A DNA stretch of 64,000 nt. Source: Bacteroidota bacterium. GTDB taxonomy: Bacteria; Bacteroidota; Bacteroidia; Bacteroidales; NBLH01. Under the pieces are notes generated by a model. That model worked only from the letters and a program-made list of their open reading frames with translations. It did not search any database and had not been told where the DNA came from. The position numbers and the translations under genes were made by a program. The stretch spans positions 1 through 64,000 of the forward strand of contig JANYKN010000112.1 of assembly GCA_025361565.1 (NCBI GenBank). Direction: 5' to 3'. Positions 21,042 through 33,280 of the stretch are shown piece after piece; within the stretch, counting starts at the first letter, position 1, and each line of letters starts with the position of its first letter.

Positions 21042-23066
21042 ATGAAACAACTATTAACAATCTCTTTTATATTAATTAATTGCGTTTCAATATTTTCGCA
21101 AGAAGTTGACTTAAAGCGCGGCTTGGTTGCCTATTATCCATTTAATGGAAATGCAAATGATGAAAGTGGGAACAAAAACAATGGAAAAGTATACGGCGCA
21201 GCATTAACTGATGATAAGTTGGGCAATAAAAATAGTGCATATTATTTTGACGGAAATTCGTATATTACAGTACCCGACAACAATTCCATTGATTTTACAA
21301 ATTCACTTTCGATATTTGCATGGATTAATCTTGAAGATGCCACGAACAACCAAAAAATTATTTCGAAGGTAATTCTTAACAACATGGAAGGTGGCTATAT
21401 TTTTGGTATTGACAAATCGCAGTTATATCCTGAAATTTTCGATAAATGGAATCAAAAAATTGGTGGTCCCAAAGGTAATTCAGTTATTCCAAGCAATTCC
21501 TGGACTCTGATCGGTGTAACTTTTAACAACAACATTGTTAAGTATTATTGTAATGATCAATGCATCGCGGAATTGCCGGTTAATTCTACTTCACTTTATA
21601 ATAACAGCAGCAATTTGATAATTGGAACAAATAGCTGGGAAAATCCCCCTTCAAATCTAATGGTAAGAGGTAAAATTGATGAAGTTCGATTATATAACCG
21701 CGCATTAAACCTAAAAGAAATTCAATCGCTTTTTGCCCTGTTTAACATTGAACCTACAATGGCTCCAGGAATTACATGGAACAATCCCGAAAATAATATC
21801 ACTTCTATTTCTAACCCTTACATCGACATTAAAGCCTGTTTAAAAACAAAAAAACCACTAACAGGTCTTCAGGTTTATTTAAATAATAACTTGTATTACG
21901 ATAATAATGGCCGTGGATACAATGTTGCCCCTAAAGGCTTGTGCGATATTGTTTTAGAACAAAGAATAATGCTTATAGATGGTGAAAATAAAATAAAAAT
22001 AATCGCTGTTAACGATGGTGGCACATCTATAAGCGATGAAAGATCTGTTTTTTATCAGTCTATAAAGCAAGACATTACAGGTCCGGTAATTACACTTATT
22101 CAACCTCAGGGCCAGCGTGGCTTTAAAATGGTTGAAGAAAACAATCAAATAAACGTAACTGGTAAAGCAACCGATGAAAGCGGAATATATAAAATTACAG
22201 TTAATGATGTAAACGCAACTTTTAATACCGATGGAATATTCAGAAACAATGTAAACCTTGCAAGTGGAGAAAATGCTATTACTATTAGGGCTACAGACAA
22301 TAAGCAAAATAATTCAGAATTTACTTTTTATGTTTCACATAAATCGAGCGAAGTAGTTGTCAATAAAATTATTACTACAAATGAAAAACGGATTGCACTG
22401 GTTATTGGTAATGGCGCTTATCCTTCTGCTCCGTTAAAAAATCCGGTAAACGATGCCGCTTTGATTTCTACCGAATTGAAAAAATTTGGTTTTGAGGTTA
22501 CAACAATTACGGATGGATCTCAAAACCAGATTAAAAAAGCTATTTCCGATTACGGAGATTTACTGTCCACAGACAAGAGCATCATTGGATTATTCTATTA
22601 TGCGGGTCATGGAATACAAGCAAAAGGGAAAAATTACATTATCCCTGTTGACGCAAAAGTAGAAAAAGAAGCAGACGTAGTTGTATATTGTGTTGATCTT
22701 GATGATTTAATGGCAAACCTGGAATATGCAGGGAATAATTTGAATATGGTTATTTTAGATGCTTGCAGAAACAATCCATTTGGCCGTGGTTTCCGTTCAG
22801 CGGCGGGAACAGGTTTGGCAACCGTAAATGCACCATCGGGAACAATCATTGCTTTTGCAACCGCACCAGGCTCCACAGCTGCTGATGGAGAAGGTAACAA
22901 CGGTCTTTACACACAAGAATTCGTTAAAGTATTGCAAGTTCCTAACCTTAAACTCGAAGACGTATTTAAAAAAGTTCGCACACAGGTAAAAACCCAATCG
23001 GGAGGAAAACAAATTCCTTGGGAAAACTCAGCATTGGAAGGAGATTTTTATTTTAAGCAACAATAA
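21042..23066 (+). CDS. secreted LamG - Ig-like - caspase (C14) protein
   Basis: A 674-residue exported protein. Signal peptide 1-20 (ends SIFSQE). A LamG/concanavalin-type jelly roll covers about 25-225 (LVAYYPFNGNANDESGN, VRGKIDEVRLYNRAL), typical of carbohydrate-binding. Two Ig-like segments follow (about 240-430). The C-terminal caspase-like peptidase (about 448-674) has RIALVIGNGAY, catalytic H523 (YYAGHGIQ) and catalytic C575 (LDACRNNPF), so it should be active and cut after a basic or acidic residue (metacaspase-like). It ends with the usual IPWENSALEGDFYF. It is monocistronic with a terminator downstream. The target is unknown. Confidence 0.88.
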   Translation: MKQLLTISFILINCVSIFSQEVDLKRGLVAYYPFNGNANDESGNKNNGKVYGAALTDDKLGNKNSAYYFDGNSYITVPDNNSIDFTNSLSIFAWINLEDATNNQKIISKVILNNMEGGYIFGIDKSQLYPEIFDKWNQKIGGPKGNSVIPSNSWTLIGVTFNNNIVKYYCNDQCIAELPVNSTSLYNNSSNLIIGTNSWENPPSNLMVRGKIDEVRLYNRALNLKEIQSLFALFNIEPTMAPGITWNNPENNITSISNPYIDIKACLKTKKPLTGLQVYLNNNLYYDNNGRGYNVAPKGLCDIVLEQRIMLIDGENKIKIIAVNDGGTSISDERSVFYQSIKQDITGPVITLIQPQGQRGFKMVEENNQINVTGKATDESGIYKITVNDVNATFNTDGIFRNNVNLASGENAITIRATDNKQNNSEFTFYVSHKSSEVVVNKIITTNEKRIALVIGNGAYPSAPLKNPVNDAALISTELKKFGFEVTTITDGSQNQIKKAISDYGDLLSTDKSIIGLFYYAGHGIQAKGKNYIIPVDAKVEKEADVVVYCVDLDDLMANLEYAGNNLNMVILDACRNNPFGRGFRSAAGTGLATVNAPSGTIIAFATAPGSTAADGEGNNGLYTQEFVKVLQVPNLKLEDVFKKVRTQVKTQSGGKQIPWENSALEGDFYFKQQ

Positions 23067-23732: not shown

Positions 23733-25085
23733 ATGGACCAAACCGATTTAATTATCCTCGAAAAAGCCATCCAGAAACTGAAATTGGGTTTCGATTCTTT
23801 CCCTGATTCTTTGACCGAAAACAACCAAAAAAGGATTGAAGAAATTATTTTAAATGTGGCTGAAAGGCTACAAAATAACTATCCTTATTTCCAGCCCAAT
23901 TATGCCGGACAAATGTTGAAACCACCACACGCCATTGCCCGAATTGCGTATATGCTTTCGCTTTACATCAACCCCAATAACCATGCACTGGATGGAGGCA
24001 TGGAAAGCTCAAAAATGGAAAAAGAAGTTATTGTTAAACTTGCCGCAATGTTTGGTTGGCAAAACAGCCTTGGACACCTAACAAGCGGTGGCACATTTGC
24101 TAATTTGGAAGCTTTATGGATTGCAGGAAAATTACATCCCAACAAGAAAATTGTAGCCTCGGAATTGGCTCATTACACGCACCAAAGGATTTCTTCTGTA
24201 TTAGGATTGTCTTTTGAACAAGTGGAAAGCGATCAATCCGGCAAAATGGACATGGGTTGCCTTGAAAAAATATTAAGCAATGGTGATGTTGGAACTGTTG
24301 TAGTAACTTTTGGGACTACTGGCATTGGTTCGATTGATCCAATGACCGAAATTTTAGAATTGCAGAAAAAATATCATTTCAGAATCCATATTGATGCAGC
24401 TTATGGTGGTTATTATGTTTTGGCTGATAATTTATCGGCAAATACCAAGGAACAATACAGTTTGATGACAAAAGCCGATAGTATTGTCATTGACCCACAT
24501 AAGCATGGACTTCAGCCTTATGGTTGTGGATGCATTTTATTTAAAAACCCTGAAGTTGGGCAATTCTATAAGCACGACTCGCCTTACACTTATTTTAGTT
24601 CCGACGAATTGCACCTTGGAGAAATAAGTCTGGAATGCTCAAGGGCAGGCGCTTCGGCAGTTGGTTTGTGGGCAACTATCGAAATGTTTCCGTTGTTTAA
24701 GAAAGGCGAATTTGCTAAAAATCTCGAAAATTGCCATCTGGCAGCCATTAAACTTTATCAACTTATTCTAACCGATAACAAATTAATTCCTTTATTGGAA
24801 CCGGAACTGGATATTGTGGTTTGGGCCGTAAAAGCTTCAACCCTAAGCAAAATCAGTAAAATATCTAACCAAATATTCCATTTGGCAGCAAAAAAATACA
24901 ATCTCCATTTGGCATTGATCAATTATCCAACAAAATTATTGAATTCGGACTGGAATAATGTAGATAAAGATGCAAATTATGTTACCTGCTTGCGTTCGTG
25001 TTTAATGAAACCCGAACACTTGGATTTTGTGGATGAGTTGTGGGCAATTTTGGAGAAATGTAAAGGTGAAGTCGAATCCATATAG
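23733..25085 (+). CDS. group II pyridoxal-phosphate-dependent decarboxylase
   Basis: A 450-residue PLP enzyme of the aspartate-aminotransferase fold, related to aromatic-amino-acid/glutamate decarboxylases. PLP Lys K257 (DPHKHGL), cofactor-binding D221 (IDAAYGG) and the N-terminal HLTSGGTFANLEALW signature are present. The substrate cannot be told from sequence; candidates are Glu, Asp, Tyr or Trp. The group is also found as tyrosine decarboxylase-like (MfnA) proteins. The HYTHQ motif around 147-151 supports a full active site. It follows the YdcF-like gene and carries its own near-copy of that gene's leader. Confidence 0.85.
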   Translation: MDQTDLIILEKAIQKLKLGFDSFPDSLTENNQKRIEEIILNVAERLQNNYPYFQPNYAGQMLKPPHAIARIAYMLSLYINPNNHALDGGMESSKMEKEVIVKLAAMFGWQNSLGHLTSGGTFANLEALWIAGKLHPNKKIVASELAHYTHQRISSVLGLSFEQVESDQSGKMDMGCLEKILSNGDVGTVVVTFGTTGIGSIDPMTEILELQKKYHFRIHIDAAYGGYYVLADNLSANTKEQYSLMTKADSIVIDPHKHGLQPYGCGCILFKNPEVGQFYKHDSPYTYFSSDELHLGEISLECSRAGASAVGLWATIEMFPLFKKGEFAKNLENCHLAAIKLYQLILTDNKLIPLLEPELDIVVWAVKASTLSKISKISNQIFHLAAKKYNLHLALINYPTKLLNSDWNNVDKDANYVTCLRSCLMKPEHLDFVDELWAILEKCKGEVESI

Positions 25086-25272
25086 TTTTCTTTAAAGCGA
25101 ATGAACTATTCAATAATTGGTTTCTGTCAAGTAGCTGATGCGGAGTAAAAATCTGATTATAAATTATCAAATGTTAGGCAGGGGCTTTGCTTCTGTCGGT
25201 AATATTTATTCAAGCTCTGCCTGTTTTTATGGAACAAATGCCTCTACTGATAAAGTATAACTGCAATTTAAC

Positions 25273-26880
25273 TTAAAACCTTTTTCTAATTTGAATATTC
25301 AATCTGCTCAATTGATCAAGCTTCTCAAAGGTCTTTTCGTAATTTACTGATAATGAGTAAGTATCCAAGAATCTCCAACTTATATTTAAGTTAATAATAT
25401 TTTGCATTTCCGTCGTTTCAGTGCCTACATAGCTATAATTAACCAATTGGTATCCACAATTGAAATATAAATTGGCTTTAAGAATATCACGGGAGATATT
25501 CAGATTGTAAATTTTACCTTTAACATAGCTTGTTTCTAAATAGTTAACAGCACCAGTTATATTCAATTTTAATGTTGGAATATTATTGTAGGAAACAAAT
25601 CCATATAAATTTTTTGTTTCAGCTGAGTTTTTATTAGGAAAACGATAACCTGTTTTAAATCCAAAAGAGACATTTTTAATTCCATAACTGGCTTGAAAAC
25701 TCAAACCTTGTCTGGCTTCAATCTCCAGCATTTGGTTGATGTAGCTTTTATAGCTTTCGTAATAAATAATGTTTTTCCGATTATCATATGATGCTGATAA
25801 TGATAATCTTTTGAATAACCTGTAATTCAAAACCAGATAAGTACTTGAAAGATCGAAGGTATTTTGAGGTACACTATCAATGTTCTTATAAAGTTCAATT
25901 TCTACCGAGCCAAAGAAGAATAAGTTCTTTATCAGCGAGTTGCTATGTTGGTAATAAGCAAAACGCCTATCCGTTTTTGATCCATTTCTTTGCTCGATAA
26001 GTGCAAAGGAATTTTGCATTTCACCATTTGAATTGGAATAGTCTTGCCCTGCATAAACTCCAAACTGAGGTAATTTAAAATCAAAACTATAATCTTTATA
26101 ATCAGGCCTAAAACCTGCAATTGCCCCAAAAAAGAAATTATTCACCTTTCCTTCATACTGCAACCCATCAATTGCTCCCATACTCGATATTTTTGGGTTA
26201 ATTTTACGCCCCAAAACTATCTGTGTATTCTTGTTATTGTCGTATTTTACCGAAAGATTATAAACTTTAAGCGCATTAAAAATATTTTCCTGAACAAGAT
26301 TCCAATTATCTTTTTGATGTTGGAATGTAATATTACTTTCAGCAGAAATCATAGAGTTACCAATGTTTTTGGCATTTAACGAAAATTGATATCGAAATCT
26401 GGTTGAATTGGCATTATTTATATTTGAAAAATTCGAATAGCTCGATGCTGCAACACTTCCAGTTATTTTTTGTTTAAATTTTGGTTGTTTAACACTATCC
26501 TCATAGTTAGATTTAATTGTATCATCTACATTTTTAGTGTTTATTGTAACTATTCCATTCTGCTTTTTTTCATTGTTTAATTTAGGAGCATTGTTTTTTG
26601 CACAAATTTCAGTTGAAACAGAAAGATTGTTTACTGAAATAGGAGTGCATACGCATGATGTTGATGAAAGATTATTGACTATTAATACCGGAATATTTTC
26701 ATTTCCTTTTACAATGTATAGTGTATCTCCAGCCTTAATATTTTCTGTTGACTTGAATTTTACATATACATTTTGCGAGCTAATATAGCTTATTTTCCCC
26801 GTTAAAGGTTTGTTATCAGTCTGCGCTTTAAGATTTAAAGCCAAACAGAAAATTAAAAATCCGATAATTAAATTCTTCAT
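25273..26880 (-). CDS. predicted outer-membrane beta-barrel protein of the cytochrome operon
   Basis: A 535-residue exported protein, last gene of the cytochrome operon, starting 12 bases after the 19-heme gene. Signal peptide 1-19 (ends LNLKAQ). An SH3-like small domain (about 25-95, KISYISSQNVYVKFKS, AGDTLYIV) and a Lys/Asn-rich linker precede a barrel region from about 140 to the end. The barrel shows alternating hydrophobic/polar strands (YQFSLNAKNIG, YNLNISRDILKANLYFN) and ends KLDQLSRLNIQIRKRF, with a C-terminal aromatic Phe as in outer-membrane proteins. No heme motif. The role as the pore of an electron conduit is inferred from position and topology. Confidence 0.7.
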   Translation of the reverse strand: MKNLIIGFLIFCLALNLKAQTDNKPLTGKISYISSQNVYVKFKSTENIKAGDTLYIVKGNENIPVLIVNNLSSTSCVCTPISVNNLSVSTEICAKNNAPKLNNEKKQNGIVTINTKNVDDTIKSNYEDSVKQPKFKQKITGSVAASSYSNFSNINNANSTRFRYQFSLNAKNIGNSMISAESNITFQHQKDNWNLVQENIFNALKVYNLSVKYDNNKNTQIVLGRKINPKISSMGAIDGLQYEGKVNNFFFGAIAGFRPDYKDYSFDFKLPQFGVYAGQDYSNSNGEMQNSFALIEQRNGSKTDRRFAYYQHSNSLIKNLFFFGSVEIELYKNIDSVPQNTFDLSSTYLVLNYRLFKRLSLSASYDNRKNIIYYESYKSYINQMLEIEARQGLSFQASYGIKNVSFGFKTGYRFPNKNSAETKNLYGFVSYNNIPTLKLNITGAVNYLETSYVKGKIYNLNISRDILKANLYFNCGYQLVNYSYVGTETTEMQNIINLNISWRFLDTYSLSVNYEKTFEKLDQLSRLNIQIRKRF

Positions 26881-26892
26881 AAGTTATTTATT

Positions 26893-28380
26893 CTATTTGG
26901 CACTTCCATTTGGATGACAATGTAAGCAAGAAGCACTAGCGTATACATATCCACTTTCACCTTTATGTTTATCGTCCATATCTGTTTTTTGATGGCAAGT
27001 TATACAAGTAAATTCTTTATAGTTACTCGCGTTTGTATGGCAATCCGAACAATTACTCCATTGTCCATTGTGCTTTCCAGAATAAATAGGGAAAGAAAGT
27101 GCATCGTGCTGCGCATAACTTGCAGGTTTCCATCCTAAAGCTGTAGTATGGCATTGGTTACAAGTTGTAGAGAAATTTAATGATGAATGTACCGGATTAG
27201 TGGTTGCATTATAATTTGGAAGATGGCAACTAACACACTCACTCGATGTACTTGTATAATTGCCGTTTATATGGCATTCAGCACACTGTCTTCCGCTATG
27301 TCCCTGAGTAAGTGCAAAATTGGTATGATCAAAAGTTGCCGGTTTCCAACCTGCAGTATTATGGCAAGTTTTACAATCTGTTGAAAAACCAGAACTAACA
27401 TGATTGGGATCGGTAGTTGCATTAAAATCCGTTTGATGACAACTTACACATTCGCTTGAAGTATTGGAGTAATTACCGTTTATATGGCATTGCGCGCACT
27501 CTCTTCCGCTATGTCCCAGTGTTAGAGGAAATATGGTATGGTCAAAATTTGCAGGTTTCCATCCAGGTGCAGTAGTATGGCATATTTTACAATCTGTTGA
27601 AAAATTAGCACTAATATGGTTGGGATTAGTGGTTGCGCTATAATTAGGCTGATGGCAACTTATACATTCAGGTGAAATTGCTGTCAGGCTGCCATTGGTA
27701 TGACATTGACTGCAATTAGGTAATGCATGTCCTTGTGTAAGTGGAAAAAAGCTGTGGTTAAACCCGTCACCAGTCCATGTATTTGAATAAATAGTATGGC
27801 AATCCGTACAATTTGTTGAAAAACCCGATGCTATGTGGTTTGGTTGCGTAGTAGCAGCATATTTGTCGCTATGGCAGCTATAACATTCTGTTCCTATAAC
27901 ATCAAACCTTAAAAGTGATTCTGATTTATGGCACTGGTAGCAGTCGGCAGTTCCATGTACACCAACAAGAGGAAACCTGCTTTCCTGATGTATTTGTGTG
28001 ATATTATTAACTAGCCATGATTGAGGTGTATGACAACGACTACATTCTTTGCCCACCGTAGATTCATGCATATCGTTATGGCATTGCACACATTGGGTTT
28101 TGGCTTCAGAAAAAATCAAAGTTGGATGACAGAGTTTGCAATCAACCTGCTCGTGTTGCCCAATTAAAGGCATCGCCGTTGAATTGTGATCAAAGGAATA
28201 AATCGATCTATCAATTTTCCAACCTTTTGCACTGTGGCAAACATCACAGCTTATGTTGAAATTATCACCATGCGGCGGTTTTATCGGATTAGGCCTACCT
28301 GTATTCCCAATTGAATACAAAGAAAAAATGCCTATTAGCATTATGGTTAATGCTGCTATTGAATATGACAGTCTTCGCAT
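26893..28380 (-). CDS. 19-heme c-type cytochrome
   Basis: A 495-residue exported protein with 19 CxxCH heme-attachment motifs (first CDVCH near 45, last CLHCH near 485). The N-terminal hydrophobic helix (8-25) has no obvious cleavage site and may anchor the protein to the inner membrane. Residues 176-460 consist of about four repeats of 71-73 residues, each with ATTxPNH, STDCKxCH, GWKP, FDHTxFxLTxGHSGRxCAxCH and NGNYxxTSSECVSCH (three hemes). The FDH histidines probably serve as distal heme ligands. It overlaps the end of the 23-heme gene by 25 bases. It most likely moves electrons in the periplasm or at the outer membrane. Confidence 0.92.
   Translation of the reverse strand: MRRLSYSIAALTIMLIGIFSLYSIGNTGRPNPIKPPHGDNFNISCDVCHSAKGWKIDRSIYSFDHNSTAMPLIGQHEQVDCKLCHPTLIFSEAKTQCVQCHNDMHESTVGKECSRCHTPQSWLVNNITQIHQESRFPLVGVHGTADCYQCHKSESLLRFDVIGTECYSCHSDKYAATTQPNHIASGFSTNCTDCHTIYSNTWTGDGFNHSFFPLTQGHALPNCSQCHTNGSLTAISPECISCHQPNYSATTNPNHISANFSTDCKICHTTAPGWKPANFDHTIFPLTLGHSGRECAQCHINGNYSNTSSECVSCHQTDFNATTDPNHVSSGFSTDCKTCHNTAGWKPATFDHTNFALTQGHSGRQCAECHINGNYTSTSSECVSCHLPNYNATTNPVHSSLNFSTTCNQCHTTALGWKPASYAQHDALSFPIYSGKHNGQWSNCSDCHTNASNYKEFTCITCHQKTDMDDKHKGESGYVYASASCLHCHPNGSAK
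27003..27855 (-). repeat. internal triheme repeats of about 72 codons in the 19-heme gene
   Basis: Four units begin at residues 176, 249, 321 and 392 (spacing 73, 72, 71), each carrying three CxxCH motifs and strongly similar in DNA. The last unit diverges after GWKPA. Confidence 0.8.
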
Positions 28381-30176
28381 TTGAATCTTTTTATTTTGTA
28401 TACTATAAATTTTTGATATTTCTCAAGTTTGTGGCATTTTGAACATGCCAAATTTGCGTGTTTTCCATCCAGTTTAAAAGCAGTATTGTCATGATTAAAA
28501 ATGCTTTCTTGCCAATTATTGGTTACATGGCAGCTGCTGCAATCGGTAACTCCGTTTTTTTCGAATTGCTTGTTATGGTTATCAGTGTGGCAATTTGAGC
28601 AGGTTTTTGGTAAACCTGCAAACTTTTGTTGCTGTTTGCCAGATTTATCGACAGAAAAATGACAATCCCTGCAGTTTGTATTTAAATGTGCACCTGTCAA
28701 TTTAAAATTGGTTTTCAAATGGTCGAAATTTAATTCTTTCCAACTTTTTTCTGAATGGCAGGTTTTACAAGTCTCATTCGGATAATATTTCTGTGCAATT
28801 GTTGTTTTATGAATGTTTTGATGACAGTCGACACAGTTTTTGCCCACATTTCTAAAACTCCAGTCATCTTGTTTTTTATGACATTCGAAACAAGCAACTG
28901 CAACATGTGCACCTTGCAGCTTAAATTCGCTTTGATTGTGATTTTCTAAGGTAAAATTCGATGGACTAAATTTATTAACTGTATGGCATTTACTGCAATC
29001 AGGAGAAGTGCCGGAATTTGCAAATTGACCTTTATGATAATCGGTGTGGCAATCAGCACAATTATTGCCCAAATTTCTGAAGCTCCAATTACCTTGTTTT
29101 TTATGACATTTAAAACAATCTACTGTAGTATGTGAGCCTTGCAATTTAAATTTGCCTTGATTATGATTTTCAACAGTGAAATTAGAAGGACTGAATCCAT
29201 TAACCGAATGGCATTTACTGCAATCAGGAGACTTATCCGACACTGCGAACTGGCCTTTATGAAAATCGGTATGGCAATCGGTACAATTATCGTGTTTTAC
29301 AGGGTCAGAAATCTTTGTTTTATGGCATAATGTGCATGAAACATTTCTGTGTTTGCCTTCGAGGATAAATCCAGTTTTGCTGTGATCGAAATTGGCATTA
29401 CCCTTAATATTATGAAATGAAGTTTCCGAATGGCATTGCTTACAATTTTGTCCAAATTTATTCTGATGTGCATCGACATGACAATTTGTACAATTGGAAA
29501 ACTGAATACCCGCAAATTTCTGAAAAGGCTTACCGTCCTTTGTTTCCTTTGAATGGCATTTTGAACAATCTACTGTTTGATGTTGTCCGAGTAAAGGAAA
29601 TTTTGTGTTTCCATGATCGAATTTTACGGCAGGTTTAAAAGTTGTTTGCCCATGGCATTTTGAGCAAGAACCCGCAAGCGTTTTTTGATGATAATCGGTG
29701 TGGCAAGTTACACATTCGGTATTTAAACCCAAATAGGTTTGAGGTTTTGATTTGAGTTTGTTATTTGTAATAAATTTTGAAGTATGGCAGGCGTTGCACA
29801 GTTGTTTAGCATGAGCTTCTTCAAGATTAAAACCTGTTAGGTTATGTTGAAAATTTGTAGTAGTAAATCGTATAATCTGAAAATTCTTGCCGTGATGGTC
29901 GTTGTGGCATGAGGCGCAGTCTTTTCCCTTTACTGCGCTGGAAGAATGATAACCTTTTTGAACATTTAGCCTTTCTTTAATTTCTGTATGACAGGCCAAA
30001 CACTTATCATTTGAAACTTTTGCTCCAATACTGTGGCATTTGGTGCAATTACTCATACCTTCCAAATGAGAATGGACTTTAGCCAATTCGCCAGGAGAAA
30101 TCTGGGAAAAAGAAGTGATATTGATTCCCAAATTAAATAAACTCAGCAGAAAAATAGTATTTACAAAATTCCGCAT
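28356..30176 (-). CDS. 23-heme c-type cytochrome
   Basis: A 606-residue secreted protein with 23 CxxCH motifs (first CTKCH at 44, last CEDCH at 600). Signal peptide 1-24 (ends SFSQ). It is built from recurring units FDHxxTxFxLxGxHxxxxCxxCH, seen for example at 186, 263, 484 and 560, where the FDH His is a likely distal ligand. Residues 298-372 and 373-447 are a 75-residue tandem duplication (CTDCHTDFHKGQF / CADCHTDYHKGQF). It is transcribed 12 bases after the FAD oxidoreductase gene, and its 3' end overlaps the 19-heme gene. The protein should be periplasmic or attached to the outer membrane and carry electrons. Confidence 0.92.
   Translation of the reverse strand: MRNFVNTIFLLSLFNLGINITSFSQISPGELAKVHSHLEGMSNCTKCHSIGAKVSNDKCLACHTEIKERLNVQKGYHSSSAVKGKDCASCHNDHHGKNFQIIRFTTTNFQHNLTGFNLEEAHAKQLCNACHTSKFITNNKLKSKPQTYLGLNTECVTCHTDYHQKTLAGSCSKCHGQTTFKPAVKFDHGNTKFPLLGQHQTVDCSKCHSKETKDGKPFQKFAGIQFSNCTNCHVDAHQNKFGQNCKQCHSETSFHNIKGNANFDHSKTGFILEGKHRNVSCTLCHKTKISDPVKHDNCTDCHTDFHKGQFAVSDKSPDCSKCHSVNGFSPSNFTVENHNQGKFKLQGSHTTVDCFKCHKKQGNWSFRNLGNNCADCHTDYHKGQFANSGTSPDCSKCHTVNKFSPSNFTLENHNQSEFKLQGAHVAVACFECHKKQDDWSFRNVGKNCVDCHQNIHKTTIAQKYYPNETCKTCHSEKSWKELNFDHLKTNFKLTGAHLNTNCRDCHFSVDKSGKQQQKFAGLPKTCSNCHTDNHNKQFEKNGVTDCSSCHVTNNWQESIFNHDNTAFKLDGKHANLACSKCHKLEKYQKFIVYKIKRFKCEDCHIQ
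28836..29285 (-). repeat. 75-codon tandem duplication in the 23-heme gene
   Basis: Codons 298-372 and 373-447 encode near-identical triheme blocks; both contain DCSKCHxVN, SPSNFT and WSFRN. Confidence 0.75.
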
Positions 30177-30188
30177 ATGAAATTGTTA

Positions 30189-31511
30189 TTAATGTTTTAA
30201 AATAGCTTCGCCAAATTTCTTGGTAATTTTAATTCCAATTTTTTCTAAAAATTGAGTGGGCAACTCGCCACCGGCAAAAATGTAAACCAAATCGTTCTTT
30301 ATTTTTATGTTTTCAACATCCTTTCCTACAGAAAGCGTAATATCTTCTTTATCAATAGAAAGCAGGTTTGAATTCAATTTAACATCAATACTTCCATTAG
30401 CAATAGCTTTATTTATTTTTGTGCTATTCATTGGCTTTAACCGGCTAAAAACATCGTTTCGATAAGATAATGTAACTTTATTATTCTCAGCTAGCAAAAG
30501 CGCCGATTCAATTGCCGAATCTCCGCCACCAACAACTAAAATGTCTTTACCCTCAATATTTTCCGGTTCTAATAAACGATATGCAACTTTTTCAGACTGC
30601 TCTCCTGGTACATTTAATTTTCGGGGCGTACCTTGTCTTCCAATTGATAATAAAACGGTTTTTGAAGTAAATTCTTCGCCTGATAATGTGTTGATTTTGA
30701 AATATCCGTTTTCGCTTACAACAGATTCAACTTTTGATTTCTCTTTTATTTCTATATTATTTTCTGCCAATACTTTTTTCCATAAATCTAATAAATCACT
30801 CTTACTGGTTTGAAAAAGTTTCACTTTGCCATAAAGTGGTAAATCCATTGGAGAAGTCATTACAATTTTTGCTCTTGGAAATGTAAAAACGGTGCCTCCC
30901 AATGTATCTTGTTCCAACACAATTGCTTTAAGGTCGTTCTTTTTGGCAGTCAGTGCTGCTGAAATTCCTGCCGGGCCAGCTCCAACAATCACAAGGTCGT
31001 AAGTGGCCCCATGATTTTTAGCAATCGTTTTGGTGAGGTTTTCTGCGGCTTGTTTTCCCTGCTCAACCGCATTTCTTATTAAACCCATGCCACCCAACTC
31101 ACCAGCTATAAATATACCTGGAACATTGGATTCGAAATTTTGGTTTATATGCGGAAGATCTACGCCACGAGTCGCTGTGCCAATACAAAGTGTAATAGCC
31201 TGGGTTGGACAAGCATGAAAGCACGCTCCGTGCCCAATGCATTGCGAAGCATTAATGGTAGTGGCTCTGCCGTTCACTATTCCCAAAACATCATGTTCTG
31301 GGCAAGCGGCTATACATGCACCTGACTTAATACAATTATGGTCAATAACCGGATGGAGAGAAACCGGTTCAAAAAGACCTTCTTCTTTAGCTTTTATTAT
31401 TTTTGCTTTTGTTATGCTTGTTTCCCGGCTTTGTTTCCGAATATATAAGCCGACAACAGCCAAACAGATGATTGCGACAACTGCGTATACCGCTATTTCT
31501 TCTAGTTCCAT
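30189..31511 (-). CDS. membrane-anchored FAD/Fe-S oxidoreductase (thioredoxin-reductase-like)
   Basis: A 440-residue protein from the ATG at 31511, one base after the cytochrome b-like gene stop. One transmembrane helix (about 6-24) anchors it. Next come two ferredoxin-like motifs: C60-x2-S63-x2-C66-x3-C70-P and C91-x2-H94-x2-C97-x3-C101-P; in each, the second Cys of the usual CxxCxxCxxxCP is missing. The rest is a two-domain FAD/NAD(P) reductase, with FAD motif VGAGPAG (177-183) and pyridine-nucleotide motif VVGGGDSAIE (326-335). The redox-active CxxC of thioredoxin reductase is absent, so electrons probably pass between NAD(P)H, FAD and the Fe-S centres. It likely feeds or accepts electrons from the neighbouring cytochromes. 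Confidence 0.82.
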   Translation of the reverse strand: MELEEIAVYAVVAIICLAVVGLYIRKQSRETSITKAKIIKAKEEGLFEPVSLHPVIDHNCIKSGACIAACPEHDVLGIVNGRATTINASQCIGHGACFHACPTQAITLCIGTATRGVDLPHINQNFESNVPGIFIAGELGGMGLIRNAVEQGKQAAENLTKTIAKNHGATYDLVIVGAGPAGISAALTAKKNDLKAIVLEQDTLGGTVFTFPRAKIVMTSPMDLPLYGKVKLFQTSKSDLLDLWKKVLAENNIEIKEKSKVESVVSENGYFKINTLSGEEFTSKTVLLSIGRQGTPRKLNVPGEQSEKVAYRLLEPENIEGKDILVVGGGDSAIESALLLAENNKVTLSYRNDVFSRLKPMNSTKINKAIANGSIDVKLNSNLLSIDKEDITLSVGKDVENIKIKNDLVYIFAGGELPTQFLEKIGIKITKKFGEAILKH

Positions 31512-31512
31512 A

Positions 31513-32367
31513 TTAAAATATCCATTTATATCCGAAAGTAATTGTAACAGCAACATGTATAATCATAATAATAATCATGATGACAGCGAAAGGTAGATGG
31601 GCTACGTGCCAGTAGTTGAAAAGTTTTTGCATAATAACCAACCTGTCTATCTTTCTATTGAGAGACATGTCTTTTTTAACAAGTTTAACGATTTTTGTAC
31701 GCTCGGCATGTGAGAAATTATGCTTTTTCAAAACACTTTTAACCAAACCCACAGTTTTGATATTACTAAAATACTTCGAAAAGTAGCCTTTACTCGCATC
31801 CGCCTTTGAATTAATAGCCGAAATAATAATTTGTGATGTTTCATCATCCAAATTATAATTATTTTTTAAAATATCGTCCAAATCAGTCTTTAATCCACGT
31901 ACTTCAGTCAAACTTAGTTCCCTGCCTTCTATTGTTCTTGGAATCTGGATATAAATAAAACGGCCAATAACACCACTTGACCAAACAGCTACCATGCTCC
32001 AGAAGCTAACCGCTACTATTCCTCCAAATTTAAATGAGGTGTGGAATAAAATCATCATCGGCCCCAGGGTGCAAAGAAAAATATGAAACTCAAGCCAATA
32101 CTTTAAACTTCCCCACCGGGATAAAGCTTTAACTCGTTTTCGGGTAATGTACAATAACATACCAAAAATCATAAGAAAGGAACCAACAATCCCTAAACCG
32201 TGGCCTATAAAACCACTTGGTTTAAGAACATCATTTGAAGGATGAAAATAACGCTCCTCAACACTGGTTTGATAATATGAATGGCCCATATTATAAAGAA
32301 TTATAAACGTAACTACAACGGTAAGTACCATTGCTCCATTAAATAATTTGCGGACAATTCCAGGCAT
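31513..32367 (-). CDS. integral-membrane cytochrome b-like protein
   Basis: A 284-residue membrane protein, first gene of the cytochrome operon. There are about five helices, at 10-30, 52-74, 92-112, 115-138 and 255-278, and a soluble charged loop of about 115 residues (145-245). Histidines at helix positions suit b-type hemes: H56 (IGHGLG), H95 (LEFHIF), H109 (LFHTSF), H254/H257 (YWHVAH) and H271 (IIHVAV). This resembles the diheme membrane b subunits that exchange electrons with quinones. No family name is certain; heme binding is inferred from the histidines and from context. Confidence 0.72.
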   Translation of the reverse strand: MPGIVRKLFNGAMVLTVVVTFIILYNMGHSYYQTSVEERYFHPSNDVLKPSGFIGHGLGIVGSFLMIFGMLLYITRKRVKALSRWGSLKYWLEFHIFLCTLGPMMILFHTSFKFGGIVAVSFWSMVAVWSSGVIGRFIYIQIPRTIEGRELSLTEVRGLKTDLDDILKNNYNLDDETSQIIISAINSKADASKGYFSKYFSNIKTVGLVKSVLKKHNFSHAERTKIVKLVKKDMSLNRKIDRLVIMQKLFNYWHVAHLPFAVIMIIIMIIHVAVTITFGYKWIF

Positions 32368-32581: not shown

Positions 32582-33280
32582 TTATTTTTTAACTGCATCC
32601 TCAAGCAATACATCGTATTTATAGCCATAACCATAATCTTTATCGAGAATAAGTTTTCCTGACAATATAAGTGTATCGCCCAGGCTTGCTTTTACTAAAG
32701 TAGTAAGCACCAAATCAAAATGTCCATCCTTTTCAGTTCCATCCTGAAGGTGAATCCAGTTTTTGCCCATAATTTCAGCATTGTATTTAGTAACAACTCC
32801 CTTTACGGTAATCACATTTCCTGCATATTTATTTTTATTTGCATATAAATCAGCAATACTGGTTAGTCCTTTGCCTAGATTTATTTTAACATTTTGCTTG
32901 GTAGTTGTTACCTCCGCTTTATAATCCGATTTACTTTGAGGTTGTTCAATAGAAGAATTCGGTTCTGTGCTTATTTTCTGAGCAAATATTATGGTTTCAA
33001 AAAATCTATTCAGCTCCTTGCTTTGAAAATTATCCATTTTCATGTTTTGGATAAAATAATATTTTACACCAACAGTGGCATTCATTTTAGTTCCGGCAAT
33101 CCATGTGTCCTTACCATTAATATCCAATAAAATATAAGTATAGCTGCTGGTTTGCAAAACCTCTTTTGCAATACCTTGAAGGGAATCTGTTGCCGGTTTA
33201 CTCTTTTGTTCGTCAGGATGATTGAATTGGCAAGAAACGAATAATGCAACAATCATTGAAATTAAAACATAATTTTTCAT
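32582..33280 (-). CDS. lipoprotein with two OB-fold-like domains
   Basis: A 232-residue lipoprotein, signal MKNYVLISMIVALFVSC with lipidated C17. The first domain (about 38-100, EVLQTSSYTYILLDI, DTWIAG) resembles the OB-fold proteins often found beside multiheme cytochromes (NrfJ-like). The second (about 140-230) has GNVITVKGVVTKYN, WIHLQDGTE and DTLILSGKLIL, a second OB-like pattern. It lies 214 bases upstream of the cytochrome operon on the same strand and has its own promoter box. It may help cytochrome maturation or bind to the complex; that role is inference. Confidence 0.72.
   Translation of the reverse strand: MKNYVLISMIVALFVSCQFNHPDEQKSKPATDSLQGIAKEVLQTSSYTYILLDINGKDTWIAGTKMNATVGVKYYFIQNMKMDNFQSKELNRFFETIIFAQKISTEPNSSIEQPQSKSDYKAEVTTTKQNVKINLGKGLTSIADLYANKNKYAGNVITVKGVVTKYNAEIMGKNWIHLQDGTEKDGHFDLVLTTLVKASLGDTLILSGKLILDKDYGYGYKYDVLLEDAVKK

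Follow-up and report, generated by a model that had tools for sequence, protein, structure and literature searches.

A PCC3-like porin-cytochrome operon of Bacteroidota with a flavin/iron-sulfur oxidoreductase and a multiheme cytochrome that varies in three-heme steps

The window, a stretch of 64,000 nucleotides from a Bacteroidota contig (JANYKN010000112.1), carries five minus-strand open reading frames (ORFs) that lie nearly end to end. They encode a putative bis-heme-b protein of the inner membrane (P0005, 31513..32367, 284 amino acids), a membrane-anchored FAD/iron-sulfur oxidoreductase (P0004, 30189..31511, 440 aa), a constant multiheme cytochrome (28356..30176, 606 aa), a length-variable multiheme cytochrome (26893..28380, 495 aa) and a predicted outer-membrane beta-barrel (P0001, 25273..26880, 535 aa). 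When we re-read the ORF coordinates, the layout described in the initial annotation was borne out, and we reproduced both its spacings (a 1-base gap, a 12-base gap, a 25-base overlap and a 12-base gap) and its 23 and 19 hemes, counted as CxxCH sites. Family scans and models also agreed with its naming of a membrane protein, a reductase, two cytochromes and a barrel. The start of the flavoprotein at 31511 yields the 1-base gap, and an alternative upstream start lies at 31556. A promoter scan was uninformative (39 sites against 37.3 expected).

Of 395 genomes sampled phylum-wide, 43 have a match to the membrane protein, counting the window's own genome (40 strong); of 391 genomes in one class containing Ignavibacteriales, 103 do (94 strong). 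The first sample comprised 55 loci including the window, and the second 60 stretches fetched from 60 of the 71 new genomes with a match, the omitted 11 being weak or fragmentary matches or contig ends. Before counting, we excluded L098 (overlap with L063) and L095, L096, L097 and L099 (other clusters); L126 is the same as L017 and contributes no heme count. The gene set, which the initial annotation proposed to seek in other Bacteroidota, is present, whole or cut by contig ends, in the 54 other first-sample loci, two of which hold broken operons (L055, split; L075, a remnant). Wherever one of the 55 extends beyond the second cytochrome, a barrel is present, so that the gene is kept in homologous operons, not consistently missing from them as the initial annotation had allowed. 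By profile search in six frames, barrel relatives occur in 46/55 first-sample and 45/60 second-sample stretches, a 94-aa remnant (L075) and two cut copies (L088, L090) being scored as present. In eight of the nine first-sample loci without one, the stretch ends inside a cytochrome (L014, L017, L019, L020, L057, L059, L061, L068), and the ninth is the split L055, whose barrel sits in L117. Thirteen of the 15 second-sample cases are short or cut stretches; L165 has neither cytochrome nor barrel in the 0.9 kb remaining past its flavoprotein, and L129 is a true exception, with a membrane protein, a 217-aa ORF and a flavoprotein and neither cytochrome nor barrel within 16 kb. The flavin/Fe-S oxidoreductase was found in 52/55 first-sample stretches, with one further copy 15 kb away, and in 47/60 of the second sample, where 11 of the 13 misses are short or cut. 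A barrel stands without an adjacent flavoprotein in L075 and L088, where the contig ends first, and without a flavoprotein in the stretch fetched in L180 and L181 of the second sample.

The membrane protein gave a helical model with five long membrane-type helices (pLDDT 85.3, pTM 0.75, 51 sequences). Across 51 aligned sequences, the window included, H95/H109 and H257/H271 are invariant and form two HX13H pairs; these pairs and SGxxG occur in 51/51 sequences, and two WX3HX13H motifs in 44/51. In P0005 the motifs are W91-H95-H109, S131-G135 and W253-H257-H271. Taking the conserved residues as ligands, we infer that the two pairs bind heme b. No Pfam family scored above its cut-off, and Foldseek with the model gave no match at an E-value of 0.001 or below. 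The cytochrome b561 fold (4o6y; Z 7.5, rmsd 3.9, 138 aligned, VIA rank 14) was rejected as lying within the noise range of helical bundles. Ferric reductases and NADPH oxidases (FRE/NOX) are fed from a cytoplasmic flavin. The window operon is unlike them in that its flavoprotein is a protein of its own, TrxR-like and bearing Fe-S clusters, and we also set aside a ferric reductase domain since P0005 does not match PF01794, though its HX13H pairs are present. The likeness to FRE/NOX, according to the accessible passages of He 2017 (PMC5566968), lies in the two HX13H pairs carried by the third and fifth helices.

The flavoprotein has a single hydrophobic segment (residues 1-28) and an overall Pfam composition of Pyr_redox_3/2 plus 4Fe-4S (Pyr_redox_3, 1.5e-42; Fer4_10, 5.8e-9). 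Residues 60-101 (31209..31334, minus strand) form a ferredoxin-like two-cluster part whose second motif is C-x2-H-x2-C-x3-C, an invariant histidine replacing one cluster cysteine. Six cysteines and His94 are invariant in 52/52 sequences, the window included, and so is each glycine checked in the two Rossmann motifs; at position 63, 14/52 have C and 38/52 have S/T/G/A. One of the clusters may be His-ligated. Membership of the thioredoxin reductase or YpdA families was rejected, the protein scoring 165.1 bits with the YpdA model (cut-off 339.9) and 86.8 with the TrxR model (cut-off 343.45), and P0004 lacks a CxxC motif. Residues 110-170 align, weakly, to the C-terminal end of all three thioredoxin reductases of the same genome (E 0.0017, 0.044 and 0.053 in a three-sequence search), and a permuted profile scored below the native one (94.8 v 101.7, 56.7 v 66.0 and 54.1 v 58.6 bits). 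The protein may have a circularly permuted thioredoxin-reductase fold, which we keep as a possibility.

Both cytochromes match Cytochrome_C7 and Cytochrom_c3_2 in Pfam, and 500 shuffles of each gave mean CxxCH counts of 0.27 for the 23-site and 0.21 for the 19-site protein (maxima 2 and 3). By eye, both have signal-peptide-like starts, that of the 19-heme protein being hydrophobic but showing no clear cleavage site. Neither window cytochrome has a recognisable lipobox, and the single flag among the N-termini listed (L069) was judged false. Of the 100 first-cytochrome ORFs counted, 98 encode 20 or 23 hemes, the two exceptions having 21 and 18. ORFs without an SPG start stand outside this count; the uncounted copies are those of L052 and L066 (19 hemes each, start lost), L060 (20), L058 (split 5 + 14) and L117 (10 in one piece).

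The second cytochrome is modular, its heme spacing in the window reading 7 + 3x3 + 3. An N-terminal seven-heme cap (27715..28248; spacing 36,16,16,34,19,25, common to most relatives) is followed by three triheme modules of 71-78 aa each (27052..27714; on average 62% identical to one another) and a C-terminal three-heme cap (26914..27051; spacing 37,15,26, the first value being the junction to the last module), all on the minus strand. Across relatives, the protein has 10-70 hemes. When CX2-4CH sites are counted, a rule adopted after the misses had been inspected, the number is 1 mod 3 in 48/49 first-sample and 42/46 second-sample proteins. A strict 3n+1 rule by CxxCH alone, fitting 47/49 but only 29/46, was abandoned; most of its misses have CX3CH or CX4CH at the expected positions. 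Residual exceptions are L092 (12), L150 (24), L158 (33 and 21) and L168 (30). Three kinds of ORF stand outside the counts: those still open where the stretch ends, those containing X (L068, L130, L149) and closed ones that lack a PHG start. Three of the latter fit 1 mod 3 all the same (L094, 31; L154, 10; L180, 67), L174 (32 and 34) and L181 (29 and 25) are probably split genes of which one piece each fits, and L063 (10), L083, L084 and L086 (9 each), L153 (13) and L155 (7) apparently represent other cytochromes. One pair of genomes shares 92-98% identity in the other four proteins, yet the second cytochrome has 31 hemes in one and 43 in the other; the heme number of natural variants can differ by 6 or 12 where the partner proteins are closely alike. 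Two pairs of genomes show that the number of modules shifts rapidly, and does so independently of the remaining parts. In many Bacteroidota, then, four parts hardly vary, and the fifth, a long cytochrome, gains or loses hemes three at a time.

The barrel model, built from only 6 sequences, has 22 strands over residues 138-534 (mean pLDDT 71.4, pTM 0.52) behind a small N-terminal beta domain, and its best match in the VIA structure comparison is Fiu (Z 19.4, rmsd 4.6, 336 aligned). It predicts a wide barrel of outer-membrane type, in line with the location given in the initial annotation. A TonB-dependent receptor was rejected, there being no plug family in Pfam and the model placing a small beta domain and a linker ahead of the strands. 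P0001 matched no Pfam or NCBIfam family at E 0.1, a result with which a remote relationship to MtrB/PioB is still compatible; MtrB was not among the structural matches listed, which excludes nothing.

A barrel with multiheme cytochromes is common to the window operon, Mtr/Mto/Pio and the Geobacter Omb-Oma-Omc conduits. The gene order had been described as unlike Mtr and Geobacter Pcc, and the Pfam/NCBIfam scans of each protein agree. We rejected Mtr/Mto/Pio membership, since the cytochromes stayed well short of the cut-offs of the MtrC and DmsE models (TIGR03508, 44.9 bits against 192.2; TIGR03507, 18.1 against 209.3). The Pfam MtrC/MtrF domain PF22113 did score above its threshold (40 and 42.7 against 30), which we read as a multiheme cross-match. 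Omb-Oma-Omc was also rejected, having 8-heme and 12-heme cytochromes in the text available against 23 and 19 in the window; excerpts report these conduits also in Ignavibacteria (PMC7399161, PMC4245776), along with cytochromes of 40 and 33 hemes (PMC7399161).

By its parts, their order and its presumed working, the set resembles 'PCC3', a published, uncharacterised porin-cytochrome type that the initial annotation did not name (He 2017, PMC5566968, in the sections accessible). The likeness is to the published description of parts, order and motifs: in the window, a 5-helix inner-membrane protein of roughly 300 aa bears SGXXG and, twice, WX3HX13H, and a porin gene stands beside two large multiheme cytochromes, in what by analogy would be the order inner-membrane protein, periplasmic cytochrome, extracellular cytochrome, porin. 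The locus tags of Sideroxydans ES-1 follow the same order in the part of PMC12016527 available. The same sections of PMC5566968 describe PCC3 in Proteobacteria as four parts without a flavin/Fe-S gene, its extracellular and periplasmic cytochromes having repeats and medians of 34 and 21 hemes, with counts of up to 85, among the largest reported. The window operon differs in adding a membrane-anchored flavin/Fe-S protein and in its modular second cytochrome; extracellular heme counts in Gallionellaceae (10-18, 26-35) are not confined to 1 mod 3 in the passages of PMC10734462 available. PCC3 porins have up to 42 predicted strands, 'most' being large (PMC5566968, in part), against 22 in the moderate model of the window barrel. 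An excerpt from 2025 still terms PCC3 functionally unverified (PMC12442390). Several humic-lake Bacteroidetes carry putative novel PCCs according to He et al. 2019 (PMC6344600), who recognised them by gene organisation, and one putative PCC, on an unbinned contig, has a 51-heme cytochrome; the passages available give no family, gene order or mechanism, and these PCCs probably include relatives of the window operon. Among the matches listed in our literature search, which lay outside subscription journals and supplements, the operon in Bacteroidota is undescribed beyond that paper.

From this anatomy and its conservation we infer, with somewhat more confidence than doubt, that the operon encodes a trans-envelope conduit of the PCC3 type carrying NAD(P)H electrons outward. 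Cytoplasmic NAD(P)H would reduce the FAD of the anchored flavoprotein, whose two Fe-S clusters would hand the electrons to the five-helix protein, where a stack of two b hemes would cross the inner membrane. The constant 20/23-heme cytochrome would carry them across the periplasm to the barrel, and the cytochrome of variable length through or beyond it to an extracellular acceptor, for example Fe(III) or humics. Net flow is probably outward, because it is downhill from NAD(P)H and favoured by the membrane potential, and its role would be to unload reductant. The window's genome encodes heme-copper oxidases, so an extracellular acceptor would not be the sole outlet.

It is unlikely, but worth weighing, that the same conduit is quinone-linked, the b-heme protein oxidising or reducing menaquinone with the flavoprotein as an accessory or bifurcating partner. 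He 2017 (PMC5566968, in part) took the HX13H pairs to indicate a quinone-active cytochrome b exchanging electrons with quinone, the known inner-membrane partners in extracellular electron transfer (CymA, CbcL/MtrH/MtoC and ImcH) are quinol oxidases or quinone reductases in the text available (PMC6295460), and L180 and L181 bear a barrel with no flavoprotein nearby. The frequency of the flavin/Fe-S oxidoreductase (52/55 and 47/60 stretches) speaks against this, as do plasmid-borne weak relatives of the membrane protein in Proteobacteria (tblastn: Methylophaga, 8e-9; Qipengyuania, 7e-7; Caulobacter, 1e-6; Alteromonas, 3e-6; Glaciecola, 4e-5; most others 2e-3 or worse). These adjoin a 7-heme cytochrome (7/7 viewed) and a different reductase of NAD(P)H type, FAD_binding_6 + NAD_binding_1 + Fer2 (3/3 scanned), for which BLAST against P0004 gave nothing significant (best E 0.13); no porin gene directly adjoins them in the plasmid gene tables, which are incomplete. 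Two unrelated NAD(P)H-type reductases paired with the membrane protein suggest NAD(P)H rather than quinone as the partner, in a comparison that is loose because two WX3HX13H motifs occur in 0/7 relatives viewed and SGxxG is missing in 2/7.

We give still less credence to electron uptake, in which the conduit would import electrons from Fe(II), minerals or partner cells. To reduce NAD(P)+, electrons from Fe(II) would have to move uphill and work against the membrane potential, and we recognised no proton-driven part in the gene set, although the host does possess oxidases. PCC3 has been discussed for iron oxidation (PMC5566968 and others, in part), which would reverse the direction; in the excerpts available it is complete in 26 Gallionellaceae genomes and an inner-membrane component is up with iron oxidation in Sideroxydans CL21, yet only few iron oxidisers of He 2017 (PMC5566968) have it. 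A periplasmic role, as reductase or electron store, with some other use for the barrel, would fit the lack of a recognised lipobox and the porin-less surroundings of the 7-heme plasmid relatives, but is very improbable given a barrel in all first-sample loci reading past the second cytochrome and proteins of up to 70 hemes, which, judged from heme number, look long for the periplasm.

The gene set ties a flavin/Fe-S input to the PCC3 type and so predicts direct NAD(P)H coupling, departing from the published quinone model. More tentatively, and with doubt prevailing, we suggest a phylum-wide, quinone-independent, plasmid-capable NAD(P)H pathway in which triheme modules (n 0 to 20) set the length of the outer wire while the inner parts stay fixed, the flavoprotein perhaps having a permuted TrxR fold and a His-ligated Fe-S cluster. 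With one cytochrome varying in three-heme steps beside four nearly constant parts, wire length becomes testable, and the 6- or 12-heme natural variants are a ready experiment on wire length and electron transfer. None of the named carriers is known for extracellular electron transfer. The cultured Emticicia oligotrophica DSM 17448 bears the operon on a plasmid, which makes deletion and complementation worth trying there.

A lipoprotein gene, possibly accessory, lies 214 bases upstream of the operon in the window (32582..33280, minus strand). Its relatives directly follow the barrel in L015, L018 and L051, and in L091 one follows the barrel on the opposite strand; in Emticicia, a GW-domain protein is encoded directly after the barrel.

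The initial annotation had described five minus-strand genes at 25273-32367, nearly end to end, encoding an outer-membrane barrel, two multiheme cytochromes, a flavoprotein and a membrane protein, and translation of the open reading frames bore out all of its values for the genes, their coordinates, gaps and overlap. The 23 and 19 CxxCH sites that it counted in the first (28356-30176) and second (26893-28380) cytochromes are also present, against means of 0.27 and 0.21 in shuffled sequences, and a Pfam scan assigned both proteins to the cytochrome c7/c3 type. The operon is real and conserved, and was well described. A lipoprotein gene on the same strand (32582-33280) may belong to the system, since its relatives lie directly 3′ of the barrel gene in three other loci (L015, L018 and L051). 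Past the other end, 75 bases downstream of where the barrel gene stops and between convergent genes, we observed a 9-pair stem (25177-25197) that was called terminator-like on the plus strand, 10 such sites being found in the region where 6.0 were expected. Read by eye, the gene directly beyond the barrel on the opposite strand (23733-25085) encodes a protein resembling PLP-dependent decarboxylases, and the translation of 21042-23066 starts like a LamG protein and ends like a caspase.

When set beside published conduits by parts and order, the operon is a variant similar to PCC3, a porin-cytochrome conduit described in Proteobacteria with a porin and extracellular and periplasmic cytochromes of median 34 and 21 hemes (He et al. 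2017, PMC5566968). The PCC3 inner-membrane protein is described there as carrying an SGXXG and two WX3HX13H motifs, and consecutive locus tags in Sideroxydans are given as inner-membrane protein, periplasmic cytochrome, extracellular cytochrome and porin (PMC12016527); compared with these descriptions, all four parts and the gene order agree. In Gallionellaceae the PCC3 periplasmic cytochrome is reported to hold 21, 24 or 27 hemes and the extracellular one 10-35, their models being termed long and mostly linear (PMC10734462). By analogy, the 20- or 23-heme protein would be a periplasmic wire and the modular cytochrome an outer wire. Unassigned putative conduits have been mentioned in Bacteroidetes, together with a 51-heme cytochrome of a putative conduit on an unbinned contig (He et al. 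2019, PMC6344600), and OmbB-like conduits with cytochromes of 40 and 33 hemes in Ignavibacteria (PMC7399161). The conduit type itself is published and uncharacterised; what is new is a flavin/Fe-S input with a His-substituted cluster, the modular length tendency of the second cytochrome and how rapidly it changes, and an example on a plasmid of a cultured Emticicia strain.

In an alignment of 51 membrane proteins, including that of the window, H95, H109, H257 and H271 are invariant and form two HX13H pairs; these pairs and SGxxG occur in 51/51 sequences, and two complete WX3HX13H motifs in 44/51. The pairs are predicted to sit on the third and fifth long helices, read as membrane helices. From their charge, the loops that follow helices two and four are probably cytoplasmic, so that one heme would lie near each face. 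A fold search with the membrane-protein model returned no significant relative.

The flavoprotein begins with a hydrophobic anchor, which is joined to a ferredoxin-like part of the two-cluster kind and to an FAD/NAD(P) part resembling thioredoxin reductase, the last without a CxxC in the window protein. Six cysteines and His94 are shared by all of the 52 sequences compared: the motif of the second cluster reads C-x2-H-x2-C-x3-C throughout, and the first cluster motif has a cysteine at its second position in only 14. One may reasonably guess at a cluster with a His ligand or with three irons. Because the residues that follow the anchor (RKQSRE) are basic, the catalytic part is probably cytoplasmic. 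A segment similar to the FAD motif at the C-terminal end of thioredoxin reductases precedes the first Rossmann motif instead of following it; the result for a circular permutation is at most suggestive, and a permuted profile scored no better in the permutation test.

The published PCC3 model is described with quinone as the inner partner (PMC5566968); a flavin/Fe-S reductase is present in most of our loci. Some proteobacterial plasmids carry relatives of the membrane protein, whose kinship is tentative since many of the matches have E values of 2e-3 or higher. These relatives adjoin a reductase from a different family (FAD_binding_6, NAD_binding_1 and Fer2 in the three scanned) and a 7-heme cytochrome (7/7 viewed). 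No porin gene lies directly beside them in the gene tables seen; on the Glaciecola plasmid one is found about 4 kb upstream. One kind of membrane protein paired with two unrelated NAD(P)H-type reductases points to NAD(P)H as the likely cytoplasmic partner. In Alteromonas (L120:7974-20396) and Glaciecola (L123:7971-20372), the relative, reductase and 7-heme cytochrome are followed by NiFe hydrogenase and maturation genes, the reductase being FNR-type by Pfam in the former and annotated as a ferredoxin in the latter. In L119, L121 and L125 this trio has genes for copper or heavy-metal resistance nearby, and a DUF1622 gene is found 3′ of it in L119, L121 and L122.

The barrel was modeled as a small N-terminal beta domain followed by 22 strands (pLDDT 71.4, pTM 0.52). 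Its top structural matches in the VIA list are TonB-dependent receptors (Fiu: Z 19.4, rmsd 4.6, 336 residues aligned) and other outer-membrane barrels. No recognised plug was found in it, and a wide lumen could thus admit a cytochrome. As for the host, its own genome contains three strong matches to heme-copper oxidases, Cytochrome_C7 matches at three other places, and no match to NrfA. In the simplest picture, a respiring bacterium would shed electrons outside when oxygen is short.

The two cytochromes were counted in a first sample of 55 loci and in a second sample of 60 stretches, fetched as a test of the rule on heme number given below. For the first cytochrome, 48/48 and 50/52 counted ORFs, respectively, have 20 or 23 hemes; for the second, the number varies between 10 and 70. 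The spacing of CxxCH sites in this second protein reveals a seven-heme cap (36,16,16,34,19,25), middle repeats spaced about 32,16,25 and a terminal three-heme cap spaced about 36,15,28, although the spacing differs between lineages and 10-heme forms start shorter. The heme number tends to be 1 mod 3: with CxxCH alone this holds in 47/49 and 29/46 proteins, and with CX2-4CH, a looser motif adopted only after the misses in the second sample were seen, in 48/49 and 42/46. Most of the extra sites sit at expected module positions, and the Emticicia protein (40 hemes) and that of a split operon in genome G353 (34) also fit. Since the sequences are related, binomial values were not used as probabilities. 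Modules within a protein are more alike than the between-protein average in 34/39 proteins, the best pairs inside some reaching 96-100%. Close relatives can differ in number, with the reservation that errors of draft assemblies in repeats could distort single counts: L071 and L073 are 92, 98, 98 and 93% identical in membrane protein, flavoprotein, first cytochrome and barrel, respectively, with 31 vs 43 hemes, and L077 and L078 share 95, 94, 83 and 86%, yet have 37 vs 31. Three other pairs (the window operon and L090, L074 and L081, L015 and L018) have equal counts at 48-74% identity, indicating that the change of heme number is not constant.

The membrane protein was matched in 7/60 genomes of a set of relatives and 43/395 across the phylum (40 at E below 1e-60), both including the own genome, and in 103/391 (94 strong) of the class of G129; the identity of L126 and L017 shows that this class includes an Ignavibacteriales genome. 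Only one of six other same-genus genomes (G003) carries the protein, so its distribution is patchy. The carriers that have names are two Lacihabitans strains, assemblies of Bacteroidales, Bacteroidetes, Cytophagaceae and Ignavibacteria, and Emticicia oligotrophica DSM 17448, where plasmid pEMTOL02 (NC_018749.1) holds, in order, ccsA, membrane protein, flavoprotein, 23-heme and 40-heme cytochromes, barrel and a GW-domain protein. Profile searches in six frames found the flavoprotein in 52/55 and 47/60 stretches of the two samples and the barrel in 46/55 and 45/60, the misses being mostly contig ends; L180 and L181 are exceptions with no flavoprotein in the stretch searched, and the copy of L055 is located separately. 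A further set of loci has the flavoprotein gene 3′ of the barrel. An ORF of 1,024-1,030 amino acids precedes the operon in L014, L015, L016, L018 and L019, the one copy scanned (L015) matching ResB and cytochrome c assembly families, and an ORF of about 200 amino acids follows the membrane protein in many loci of both samples, the one copy scanned (L053) being a TPR protein.

Several loci depart from this organization. An operon remnant in G199 (L075:13714-14836) consists of a membrane protein shortened by stops and a 94-amino-acid barrel end, with the flavoprotein and cytochromes missing between them. In G353 (L055, L117), about 14 kb of other genes part the membrane protein and a 205-amino-acid neighbour from the remaining operon. 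A second, shorter relative of the membrane protein, with a 10-heme cytochrome (L063:2728-4634), adjoins the main operon beside a 34-heme modular cytochrome, and similar pairs occur apart from the main operon in L095 and L099.
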